The notes beneath the pieces are model-generated. The model saw only the letters and a list, made by a program, of their open reading frames with translations. It searched no databases and was not told the origin of the DNA. Shown in pieces: positions 5,706-54,364 of a stretch of 64,000 nucleotides of DNA. How positions within the stretch are numbered: the first letter of the stretch is position 1; every line of letters starts with the position of its first letter. The translations under genes and the position numbers were made by a program. Origin of the DNA: Oscillospiraceae bacterium (GTDB lineage Bacteria > Bacillota > Clostridia > Oscillospirales > CAG-272); assembly GCA_015063685.1 (NCBI GenBank), contig SVTR01000012.1, forward strand, positions 1 through 64,000, written 5' to 3'.

Positions 5706-5757
5706 AAAGGGGCTGAGCCAGTTGCTTTCGTAAAAGCTTTTGGCTCAGCCCCCTTTT
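5706..5757 (+). terminator. Terminator of the glycosyltransferase operon
   Basis: Stem AAAGGGGCTGAGCCA / TGGCTCAGCCCCCTTTT with an inner GCTTT/AAAGC stem, ending in TTTT. Confidence 0.88.
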
Positions 5758-5785
5758 ATGCGGGAAATAAGCCTGTAATTTTATA

Positions 5786-5959
5786 GGGCATCTCTAAAAA
5801 CTCATCGCACGCCGATATGACGGTGCTTTTTCCGTCATGCGTCACAAAATTCTTTCGCATAGGGTCAACTATGCGTGCAGATTTTTGTTTAGAGGTGACC
5901 TTTAGTCTGACGAAAAAATCTCTCGCATCTCGCCGCATACTGAGTATTTAGAGATGCCC
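5786..5959. mobile_element. MITE-like element, copy 1 (174 bp)
   Basis: Starts GGGCATCTCTAAAAACTCA and ends with the inverse TGAGTATTTAGAGATGCCC (19-bp terminal inverted repeats, one mismatch). It is flanked on both sides by TATA (5782-5785 and 5960-5963), a 4-bp target duplication. It has no coding capacity. It holds internal inverted segments (GACGG-TGCTTTTT-CCGTC; GCATAGGG...CTATGC). It is 13 bp longer than copies 2 and 3 because of an extra AGGTGACCTTTAG. Confidence 0.85.
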
Positions 5960-6004
5960 TATAGAATATTTTTTCGCGTTTTTTTTGTATTTTTCATGTA
6001 ACTC

Positions 6005-6033
6005 TTGACATTGTACCCCAAATGTTATATAAT
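6005..6033 (+). promoter_or_regulatory. Promoter of the ABC exporter operon
   Basis: Perfect consensus: TTGACA (6005-6010), 17-bp spacer, TATAAT (6028-6033). An 80-bp leader precedes the first start codon. Confidence 0.9.
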
Positions 6034-11385: not shown

Positions 11386-11943
11386 AAATTGTTGTTTAGC
11401 GGGCAGTGCCCGCGGCCATCGCTCGGGGTAGTGCATCCTATGCGTACCACATACCGCGATGAGCAGCTGGTCAGTTAAATTGTTGTTTAGCGTTGTTGTG
11501 CCCCGCCTTGAAACAGTCATCCTGAGCGAGGGCGATGCCCGAGTCGAAGGATCCCACAGGAAGCAAAACCTTTTTATGACAATGGTTTTTTACAGGTATA
11601 AAGAGATCCTTCGGCGCGGCCAGCGGCCTTGCTCAGGATGACCGCGTTGGTCAGTAAACGCCCATAAACAACAATTTAACTGAACAACTGCTCATCGCGG
11701 TATGTGGTACGCATAGGATGCACTACCCCGAGCCAGAGCCCCACCTCAGGTGGTAAACAACAATTTATCTAACCAACTGCCCTTCGCGGTATGTGGTACG
11801 CATAGGATGCACTACCCCGAGCCAGAGCCCCACCGCAGGTGGTAAACAACAATTTAACTGAACAACTGCTCACCGCGGTATGCGGTCTGTATGGGTTGAA
11901 CTCCTCGGCGTTGGCAGGCGGCACGGCCGCCAAACAACAATTT
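11386..11943. repeat. Modular intergenic repeat array 1 (AAATTGTTGTTTA family)
   Basis: Boundary 13-mer AAATTGTTGTTTA occurs at 11386 and 11477; its inverse TAAACAACAATTT occurs at 11665, 11754 and 11843, and a variant at 11931. Spacings are 91, 89, 89 and 88 bp. Each unit carries a conserved block (CGCGGTATGTGGTACGCATA) and a variable hairpin tip (GGGCAGTGCCC, CCACCTCAGGTGG, CCACCGCAGGTGG, GGCGGCACGGCCGCC). The 175-bp middle module (11490-11664) has inverted halves built on GTCATCCTGAGCGAGG and CTTGCTCAGGATGAC. Confidence 0.9.
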
Positions 11944-14599: not shown

Positions 14600-15157
14600 A
14601 AATTGTTGTTCACCACCTGCGGTGGGGCTTTGGCTCGGGGTTATTCAACCCATGCGAACTACATCCCGCGATGGGTAGTTAGGCAGGTAAATGTTGTTTA
14701 CCACCTGCGGTGGGGCTTTGGCTCGGGGTTATTCAACCCATGCAAACTACATCCCGCGATGGGTAGTTAGGCAGATAAATTGTTATTTACCACTTGCGGT
14801 GGGGCTTTGGCTCGGGGTTATTCAACCCATGTAATCCATATACCACGATGGGCGGTTAGGTAGCTAAATTGTTGTTTAGCGTTGTTGTGCCCCGCCTTGA
14901 AACAGTCATCCTGAGCGAGGGCGATGCCCGAGTCGAAGGATCCCACAGAAAGCAAAACCTTTTTATGACAATTGTTTTTTACAGGTATAAAGAGATCCTT
15001 CGGCGCGGCCAGCGGCCTTGCTCAGGATGACCGCGTTGGTCAGTAAACGCCCATAAACAACAATTTAACTGACCAGCTGCTCATCGCGGTATGTGGTACG
15101 CACAGGATGCACTACCCCGAGCGATGGCCGCGGGCACTGCCCGCTAAACAACAATTT
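14600..15157. repeat. Modular intergenic repeat array 2 (AAATTGTTGTTTA family)
   Basis: Boundary 13-mers at 14600 (ends TTCA), about 14688 (one T short), 14777 (TTATTTA) and 14866; inverse copies at 15054 and 15145. The first three units carry a variant block (GGCTCGGGGTTATTCAACCCATG) and the tip CCACCTGCGGTGG. The 175-bp middle module (14879-15053) is almost identical to the one in array 1, and the last unit ends in the GGGCACTGCCCGC tip. Confidence 0.9.
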
Positions 15158-25904: not shown

Positions 25905-27707
25905 ATGAAGGATTACTTGTATCAATATCTGCCCGACGGCGCGGCCGCTTATGAAAACGACGTTCATAAAAACGCCCTGTTTATTCTGGAAAAACAATTG
26001 CTGGACAAGTCCCTTTGGGATAAATTTGTCTACGTCTTTACCGAGCGTCCCGATCCCGAGGACTTGGGCTGGCGAGGTGAGTATTACGGCAAAATGATGC
26101 GGGGCGCATGCCTTACTTATCGCTATCTCCCCTCGGACGAGCTGTACACCGTCCTGTACGAGACCGTCAAGGGTCTCTTGGATACTCAGGATGCCGATGG
26201 CCGTATTACCACATACGCCAAGGACAAGGAGTACTGCGGTTGGGATATGTGGACGAGAAAGTATGTCCTGGTCGGATCTCTCTATTTCTACGGTATCTGC
26301 CGTGATGAGGCCTTCAAGGCACGGATTATCACCGCTATGAAAGCGCAGGTGGACTACCTTATTGATACCTTGGGAGAGGATAAGCTGTCTATCCTCAATA
26401 CCTCCGCATGGTGGGGAGGCCTCAACTCCGCGTCCGTGCTGGAACCCATCGTGGAGCTTTACAAGCTGACGGGAGAAGAAAAATACCTGATCTTCGCTAA
26501 ATACGTGCTGGAGTCCGGCGGGTGCCGTGACGGAAATCTCCTCGATTTGGCCGAGGAAGGGAAACTCATGCCCTATGAATACCCCGTGGTCAAGGCCTAC
26601 GAAATGATGTCCTATTTTGAGGGCGCGCTGGCCTACTACGAGGTCACGGGGGAGACCAAATACCTAAATATCGTGGAAAAATTCGCAGATGCCGTGCGTA
26701 AGACAGATATTACCATCATCGGTTGCGCGGGCTGTACCCACGAGCTTTTTGACCACTCCGCGGATAAGCAGACCGAAGAGACCGAGCCTTTGGCCATCAT
26801 GCAGGAGACCTGCGTCACCGTTACCTGGATGCGTTTGCAGGAACGCCTGCTTCGCCTGACGGGTAAGGTCATCTACGCCGAGGGTATCGAGCAGTCTGCC
26901 CTCAACGCCTTGTACGGTAGTTTGAACTATGAAGGTCTGCCCCAGCTTGAGAAAAGCGAGAACATCCGCGTGCCCGGCGTCCCCTTCGACAGCTATAGCC
27001 CCCTCACCTTCAAGGCTCGCGGTATCGGCATCGGTGGATATAAAAAGTTCTCCACCGGCGGATATTATGGCTGCTGCGCCTGCATCGGAGCGGCGGGTAC
27101 CGCACTGTTTCCTCTCATTAGTGTGATGGCACAGGAGAACGGCTTCGTGATCAATGAGTATAACAACGGCACCGTTACCGCCACTACCCCCGTAGGTAAC
27201 CCTGTTACCCTCCGCATCAGCGGTTATTTTATCGATGAAGGTCATGCCACCGTCACTCTCGCACTGAGCACCCCCGAGACCTTTACCCTCCGTCTCCGGG
27301 TTCCCGCCTGGAGCCATGAGCCCACCGTCACGGTGAACGGCGATAGCAAAAAGGTGGAGGTCGGCTACGTCGATCTTACCCGTGAGTGGAAGGATGGCGA
27401 CACCCTCACGATTGATGCCCATCCCGAAATGGAAATGCAGACTCTTAACGGTAAGATCGCTTTTACCTTCGGAGCCCTGGCTCTTGCCCGCGACGAGCAA
27501 AAGGAGGAGGGGAACATCGAAGCCCCTGTCGTACCTGTCCTGCATAACGGCAAGCTGATCGTTAATCAGTTGGATGCCAAGGCCGGTGAGACTGTCCGCT
27601 TCACCGTCAAGACCGAAGCAGGCGACCTGCTCCTCACCGACTACGCCTCCTGCGGCAAGCATTGGATGGAGGAAAGAAACCGCATCTCGGTTTGGCTGAA
27701 CAGATAA
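25905..27707 (+). CDS. GH127-type (DUF1680) glycoside hydrolase
   Basis: 600 residues, cytoplasmic (no signal peptide). An (alpha/alpha) barrel covers about 1-420 and a beta-sandwich tail the rest. Glu301 and Cys303 in METCVTVTW and Cys390/Cys391 in YYGCCAC fit the Glu-Cys-Cys-Cys zinc set of the beta-L-arabinofuranosidase HypBA1, where a Cys is the nucleophile. Arabinofuranosidase activity is the best guess, but GH127 relatives (GH142, GH146) differ. The start is placed at the second ATG (25905), six bases after GCGGAG; the first ATG (25899) abuts the ribosome site. The stop TAA is formed by the edge of repeat array 3. Confidence 0.85.
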   Translation: MKDYLYQYLPDGAAAYENDVHKNALFILEKQLLDKSLWDKFVYVFTERPDPEDLGWRGEYYGKMMRGACLTYRYLPSDELYTVLYETVKGLLDTQDADGRITTYAKDKEYCGWDMWTRKYVLVGSLYFYGICRDEAFKARIITAMKAQVDYLIDTLGEDKLSILNTSAWWGGLNSASVLEPIVELYKLTGEEKYLIFAKYVLESGGCRDGNLLDLAEEGKLMPYEYPVVKAYEMMSYFEGALAYYEVTGETKYLNIVEKFADAVRKTDITIIGCAGCTHELFDHSADKQTEETEPLAIMQETCVTVTWMRLQERLLRLTGKVIYAEGIEQSALNALYGSLNYEGLPQLEKSENIRVPGVPFDSYSPLTFKARGIGIGGYKKFSTGGYYGCCACIGAAGTALFPLISVMAQENGFVINEYNNGTVTATTPVGNPVTLRISGYFIDEGHATVTLALSTPETFTLRLRVPAWSHEPTVTVNGDSKKVEVGYVDLTREWKDGDTLTIDAHPEMEMQTLNGKIAFTFGALALARDEQKEEGNIEAPVVPVLHNGKLIVNQLDAKAGETVRFTVKTEAGDLLLTDYASCGKHWMEERNRISVWLNR

Positions 27708-27958
27708 ATTGTTGTTTAGCGGGCAGTGCCCGCGGCCATCGCTCGGGGTAGTGCATCCTGTGCGTACCACATACCGCGATGAGCAGTTGGTCAGTTAAAT
27801 TGTTGTTTATGGGCGTTTACTGACCAACATGGTCGTAGGGGCGAACTGTGTTCGCCCGTAATAAAAAGTATATTGATAAACAAAGGCTTTGGGGGAACGG
27901 CGGGCGAACGCAGTTCGCCCCTACGGGTTTTCATTAAACCTCCGCTAAACAACAATTT
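27706..27958. repeat. Modular intergenic repeat array 3 (AAATTGTTGTTTA family)
   Basis: Boundary 13-mer at 27706 and 27797 (spacing 91), inverse copy at 27946. The first unit matches that of array 1 (GGGCAGTGCCCGC tip). The middle module differs: it begins GGGCGTTTACTGACCAAC (the mirrored edge of the array 1 middle module) and then holds a GTAGGGGCGAAC...TTCGCCCCTAC inverted pair. Confidence 0.9.
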
Positions 27959-30466: not shown

Positions 30467-30590
30467 TTATTCAATAACCTCCGGGATCTGTGTGCCTGCT
30501 TTGTCGTAGAGGCGAGTGATCTGCTGGGAGTTTTCCGGGGATGATTAGATCATCCACTTGTAGTGCAGACCATTGTGGACGCAGCGCAGG
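30467..30590 (-). pseudogene. C-terminal fragment of a lost gene
   Basis: On the minus strand one frame reads LRCVHNGLHYKWMI, an in-frame TAA, then SSPENSQQITRLYDKAG and TQIPEVIE before a second stop. The text has normal protein composition but no start, and its 5' end runs straight into the MITE remnant at 30590. The parent protein is not recognised. Chance reading cannot be excluded. Confidence 0.4.
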
Positions 30591-30640
30591 ACGAAAAAAT
30601 CCCTCGCATCTCGCCGTACGCTGAGTGTTTAGAGATGCCC
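30590..30640. mobile_element. Truncated MITE-like element (right end only)
   Basis: 51 bp match the right end of the full copies (GACGAAAAAATCCCTCGCAT... to TTTAGAGATGCCC), followed by TATA. The left two thirds are missing. Confidence 0.8.
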
Positions 30641-38517: not shown

Positions 38518-38560
38518 AATCCCCCAATAGGGTACATACCCTATTGGGGGATTGGTTTTT
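38518..38560 (+). terminator. Terminator of the TIM-barrel gene
   Basis: Stem AATCCCCCAATAGGG / CCCTATTGGGGGATT followed by GGTTTTT; the MITE begins inside the T-run. Confidence 0.9.
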
Positions 38561-38721
38561 GGGCATCTCTAAAAACTCATCGCACGCCGATATGACGGTG
38601 CTTTTTCCGTCATACGTCACAAAATTCTTTCGCATAGGGCCAACTATGCGTGCAGATTTTTGTTTAGTCTGACGAAAAAATCCCCCGCATCTCGCCGCAC
38701 GCTGAGTATTTAGAGATGCCC
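38561..38721. mobile_element. MITE-like element, copy 2 (161 bp)
   Basis: Same 19-bp terminal inverted repeats as copy 1, flanked by TTTT on both sides (38557-38560 and 38722-38725). No coding capacity. Confidence 0.85.
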
Positions 38722-38776
38722 TTTTGAAAATACGGGTTTAATTTGCTGCTTTGCTATACTTGGTCAGAATGTGAGA

Positions 38777-54051: not shown

Positions 54052-54155
54052 GGCGCAGAAGGAATTTGATTGGTAAAAATGGTTATATATTTGCTATAAA
54101 GAGGGCAGGTCAAAACAAAAAATATTTGCGTACAGGATCACTTTTTTTGATTGAG

Positions 54156-54316
54156 GGGCATCTCTAAAAACTCATCGCACGACGAAATGACGGTGCTTTT
54201 TCCGTCATACGTCACAAAATTCTTTCGCATAGGGTCAACTATGCGCGCAGATTTTTGTTTAGTCTGACGAAAAAATCCCTCGCATCTCGCCGCACGCTGA
54301 GTATTTAGAGATGCCC
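54156..54316. mobile_element. MITE-like element, copy 3 (161 bp)
   Basis: Same terminal inverted repeats as copies 1 and 2, flanked by TGAG on both sides (54152-54155 and 54317-54320). Confidence 0.85.
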
Positions 54317-54364
54317 TGAGATTATAAAAATCAATCTCGCGATAAGAAAAAACACAAAAAACTA

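Follow-up and report, generated by a model that had tools for sequence, protein, structure and literature searches.

The nearest described counterparts of the element reported here are the IS5-derived MITEs BrickBuilt, MITEPgRS/464 (Porphyromonas gingivalis) and ATR (Neisseria meningitidis), which like it are gene-less and have ends matching those of IS5-family insertion sequences (ISs), but differ from it in the sequence of those ends (GAGACC...) (PMC4596501). The P. gingivalis MITEs share their terminal inverted repeats (TIRs) with full-length ISs of the same genome (PMC4596501), whereas no such partner was found in the genome that houses our element. MITECca01 of Cardinium, with 169 copies and a tendency to nest in mobile elements, resembles it in its high copy number, recent spread and mostly intergenic placement or placement within other mobile elements; however, it derives from an IS982 parent and is confined to one strain, whereas relatives of the present element occur in several genera (PMC9769881). 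ERIC and Chunjie are likewise short, gene-less, intergenic MITEs (review PMC10969869). Both differ from our element in sequence and hosts. ERIC is an imperfect palindrome of conserved length seen in many genera, and the partner transposase families of ERIC and Chunjie are different or unknown. The IS5-family ISs recognized by NF033581 (transpos_IS5_4) have the same terminal ~18 bp and 4-bp duplication as the present element (L132, L098 and L207, discussed below), but carry a transposase gene, which the latter lacks.

The window, i.e., the whole 64,000-nucleotide stretch of Oscillospiraceae DNA analyzed here, contains three complete copies of the element on the forward strand, each flanked by 4-bp direct repeats that match perfectly, just as the original prediction had it. 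Copy 1 (174 bp, 5786-5959) belongs to a subtype with a 13-bp relic and lies between two TATA words (5782-5785 and 5960-5963); copy 2 (161 bp, 38561-38721) is bracketed by TTTT (38557-38560 and 38722-38725) and copy 3 (161 bp, 54156-54316) by TGAG (54152-54155 and 54317-54320). A fourth copy on the same strand is truncated to its last ~51 bp and has the right end only (30590-30640). With up to three mismatches, the 19-mer end has seven matches in the window against 0.03 expected. The left end of the copies reads GGGCATCTCTAAAAACTCA and the right end GGGCATCTCTAAATACTCA, with a one-base difference. The predicted 19-bp inverted ends are present on all three copies, but they are imperfect, the two ends of each copy differing by one base (AAAAACTCA on the left, AAATACTCA on the right; 18 of 19 bp match). 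The whole element is ~74% self-complementary. Its coding content amounts to a 60-aa ORF without coding signs that overlaps copy 1, in keeping with the claim that it encodes nothing, and an Rfam search of the window recovered just a tRNA, with no RNA family at the element. At 161 or 174 bp and without a transposase gene, it has the size of a MITE (about 50-600 bp), along with the TIRs, the fixed-length duplications and the many dispersed copies and empty sites that define this kind. Copy 1 sits between a hairpin that follows the upstream gene (5706-5760) and resembles sequences in the congeners G010 and G011, and a perfect TTGACA-17-TATAAT promoter match (6005-6033), both of which are intact.

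In the genome holding the window (G000; a 2.72-Mb assembly of 57 contigs, 93% complete), the ends occur 205 times with at most two mismatches, as against once for a reversed-pattern control, and the elements number about 100. The duplicated 4-mers, which the original prediction expected to recur at other copies, are exact and of diverse sequence in 55 of 64 curated copies, while shifted 4-mers, taken as a control, match in 0-1 of the 64. The nine copies without matching flanks include some with exchanged-looking flanks (L172, L182) and slightly altered copies, and some contigs end at copies; hence, one could conceive of recombination or assembly error, instead of transposition, as the source of the repeat's spread. 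That so many copies have exact duplications of differing sequence, and that there are clean empty sites, makes such an origin hardly credible. Empty sites are available both in a repeat paralogue and at an orthologous position in a congener. When the flanks of L166 are joined minus one AACA, they align without gaps to an unoccupied, paralogous repeat in L008, and those of L192 likewise give a continuous alignment to window 11693-11840. For L181, the flanks match a region of the congener G004 (L163) where the element is absent and the TGTA that is duplicated in G000 is single; in this alignment the left flank matches over 331 bp (72% identity) and the right one over a short stretch of 29 bp (90%). 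Together with the duplications, these sites bear out the proposed transposition with 4-bp staggered cuts, for which empty sites in relatives had been anticipated. Congeners also lack the element upstream of the ABC-transporter gene that follows copy 1; this region was rejected as an empty site, its left flank being non-syntenic. An origin from REP/RAYT (IS200/IS605-like) elements was rejected too: those elements make no target duplication, and 4-bp duplications with long TIRs are the opposite pattern.

The preferred target is AT-rich and weakly palindromic, TAAAY-NNNN-RTTTA, and this preference persists when insertions into a second repeat family are left out. By a crude ORF test, 18 of 60 insertions lie inside a long ORF, as compared with 92% of random window positions. 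The second repeat family (window 11386-11943, 14600-15157 and 27706-27958) is made up of 89-91-bp units in tandem and inverted arrays, bounded by TAAATTGTTGTTTA / TAAACAACAATTTA; its boundary word fits the preferred target of the MITE, and a considerable share of the MITE insertions lies within it (target-site duplication TGTT/AACA).

The copies are young, because the 44 correctly oriented 161-bp copies have on average ~2.3 mismatches (1.4%) to their consensus and include 20 identical pairs; this divergence excludes one apparently mis-oriented outlier with 59 mismatches and stands at 2.2% if it is included. Minimal elements with barely more than the two ends are found in L168:601-646 (46 bp) and L198:583-619 (37 bp), both flanked by perfect 4-bp duplications (TATA and AAGT, respectively). 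The family has passed through repeated rounds of movement, which can be followed in a set of nested and derived forms. A related 162-bp element, type B, with ends of the form GGGAACC.../GGTCACC... (GGGAACCTCTAAAAACTC / GGTCACCTCTAAAAACTC in L166:707-868 and L209-L218), has ~18 full copies in the genome. In L166 and L167 it is inserted in the MITE at TTTA and flanked by the resulting TTTA duplication; several type B copies are nested in the main family at this one TTTA site, and it is also found free-standing (L214 with TATT and L216 with TAAT). The 327-bp composite of type B within the MITE occurs at several sites and has moved as a unit, because it is flanked by separate duplications in L166 (AACA), L167 (TGTT) and L174 (AGTT). 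The 174-bp copies, among them copy 1 of the window, retain GAGGTGACC and a second TTTA at the type B insertion site, and several of them have their own duplications. In copy 1, comparison with the 161-bp copies and the L166 and L167 composites places this 13-bp relic, the right end of the nested element plus the second TTTA of its target duplication, at 5892-5904 on the forward strand. The 174-bp form is thus probably a deletion product of the composite, the deletion having run from one TTTAG word to another.

With regard to the enzyme, the original prediction had a transposase encoded elsewhere moving the element, and suggested a search for a transposase gene flanked by the same ends. Such a gene is present in the congener G004, but none was found in G000 itself. 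With an IS protein from Ignavibacteria as the query, an intact homologue was found in G004 (45%, E 9e-86) and decayed pieces in G002, but nothing in G000. The G004 locus is a complete IS5-family element of 1243 bp (L132:1434-2676) with ends GGGCATCTCTAAAAACTCC / GGGCACCTCTAAAAACCAC and a TGCA 4-bp duplication, and its left 18 bp are identical to those of the MITE. Its transposase is an intact 343-aa ORF that hmmscan assigns to NF033581 (279 bits, cut-off 140), with further matches to PF01609 and PF05598; no solved structure similar to it in sequence was found. G004 is listed as 9% contaminated; the L132 contig is probably no contaminant, because its right flank (the plsY region) is matched in further genomes of this genus. 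A second complete IS, from Ignavibacteria (L098:4210-5538), has a TTAA duplication and scores 245 bits with NF033581. Searches of plasmids returned homologous proteins annotated as 'IS5 family transposase', and one so annotated on a Pseudosulfitobacter plasmid goes with an end GGGCATCTCTAAAAATTG and a CTTA duplication. The classic E. coli IS5 has other ends, and its transposase is only ~28% identical. Transposase relatives at ~45% identity or more mostly adjoin an GGGCAYCTCTAAAAA end (L132, L098, L206, L207, L049, L055, L115, L127, L134, L138 and L140), and the IS5 relatives at 23-30% identity have no such end adjoining the ORF at the loci examined. Of two further homologues, L208 (41%) is devoid of the end and L141 (58%) shows it in weak form. 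This set is partly biased, as the end itself served to retrieve several of the loci, whereas L132, L206, L207 and L140 were retrieved by protein or family and are unbiased.

On the strength of the common ends and duplication length, we propose that the element is very probably a non-autonomous MITE whose movement depends on an IS5-family DDE transposase (NCBIfam transpos_IS5_4) acting in trans. This transposase would recognize the ~18-bp ends GGGCAYCTCTAAAAAC(TC), make a 4-bp staggered cut in the target and insert the element, giving rise to the 4-bp duplication, with a preference for AT-rich, weakly palindromic intergenic TAAAY-NNNN-RTTTA sites. We infer that the L132-type transposase, or a close relative, may be the version that actually moves it. 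The sharing between MITE and IS is limited to the terminal ~18 bp, and the 161-bp interior showed no resemblance to the IS copies examined; hence, a direct descent of the MITE from the IS by internal deletion is unsupported. In G000, the PF01609, NF033581 and PF05598 models recovered no IS5-type transposase, and the transposase protein of the congener had no match; as the assembly is incomplete, this absence does not prove loss, and the local family looks either orphaned or separated from a partner that is unassembled. For IS5-dependent MITEs in general, having the partner transposase in one's own genome is the usual state without being a strict requirement of the definition. The lack of such a gene in the assembly despite the recency of the copies raises the alternative that a different DDE family still in this genome (e.g., of the IS1182, IS982 or IS1380 type) moves the MITE, its IS5-like ends being convergent. 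This is unlikely given the exact 18-bp end match with an intact IS5_4 element of the same genus with an equal duplication length, and the occurrence of the same ends next to most of the closer IS5_4 homologues across several phyla. Further, PF05598, the N-terminal domain of the L132 transposase, which is also borne by IS1182 transposases, was not found in G000.

Movement by an IS5_4 transposase, the explanation we prefer, involves ends that extend well beyond this genus. The exact 19-mer end is found in many phyla, in at least 84 stretches, many of which bound gene-less elements that measure 44-261 bp and are unrelated in their interiors. A 4-bp duplication is seen at 24 of 55 mechanically paired ends, a pairing that includes false pairs, and among the taxa with gene-less elements that have both the same ends and 4-bp duplications are Lactococcus, Prolixibacteraceae and Cytophagales. 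Palindromic elements of ~44 bp, consisting almost only of the same ends, are seen on Treponema and Spirochaetales contigs (L052, L065, L069, L100, L117 and L131). The 161-bp sequence itself has no copy in the plasmid and phage collections. The word GGGCATCTCTAAAAA is absent from the literature searched, in which a few keyword searches found neither the family, nor its IS5_4 link, nor the conserved hairpin.

The interior of the element is distinguished by its secondary structure. A single element folds into one full-length hairpin (-69.2 kcal/mol, z -9.6). Across aligned elements of 158-164 bp that come from this genus and others in the family, 87% of the pairs are kept, as opposed to 36-49% when slid, and compensatory double changes occur at 32 of 59 pairs versus 15.8 in shuffles, a level that 0 of 500 shuffles reached; as the structure came from one of the aligned sequences, it is somewhat favored, and the shuffles ignore relatedness. 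An earlier set of 20 elements had double changes at 22 pairs. In the apical stem, pairing reaches 95%, and 6 of 7 pairs have changed on both sides. A covariance model of the core, which matches copy 2 at 38597-38684 on the forward strand, had hits in 17 of the 118 genomes sampled from the bacterial family and in 16 of 71 genera, some with weak E-values. Among 10 such loci inspected, 8 lie inside elements of 160-164 bp whose ends are recognizable, if sometimes much diverged, and 3 of these 8 have duplications; the other two (L234 and L236) are without convincing ends. The preservation of a hairpin across many genera is less usual than the MITE kind itself.

This stable hairpin, its compensatory changes in several genera and the mostly intergenic location could point to a repeat whose structure is retained for a function in RNA or DNA, in the manner of the ERIC/REP-type intergenic palindromes, with transposition being historical only. 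However, near-identical copies, exact duplications and empty sites testify to recent mobility, with which an additional function is still compatible, and template switching from arm to arm could likewise yield compensatory changes; we consider a purely historical transposition very improbable. For an element that is moved by an IS5_4 transposase, the conserved full-length hairpin would owe its persistence either to selection or to exchange between its arms, and both fit. We raise only tentatively the former possibility, under which the element would be a long-lived non-autonomous lineage of fixed length (~161 bp) in several genera, whose full-length stem, as RNA or extruded DNA, would be needed for its spread or have a role in the host. 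If so, the element would not simply be an IS derivative produced by random deletion.

We regard the MITE family as new and its kind, that of the IS5-group MITEs, as known, with a structured interior that is unusually long-lived. Through the common ends, it ties widespread short gene-less repeats of several phyla to one transposase group, by which they become annotatable. Its successive forms (161 bp, the 327-bp composite and 174 bp), along with the strongly covarying hairpin, make the role of secondary structure in a MITE testable.
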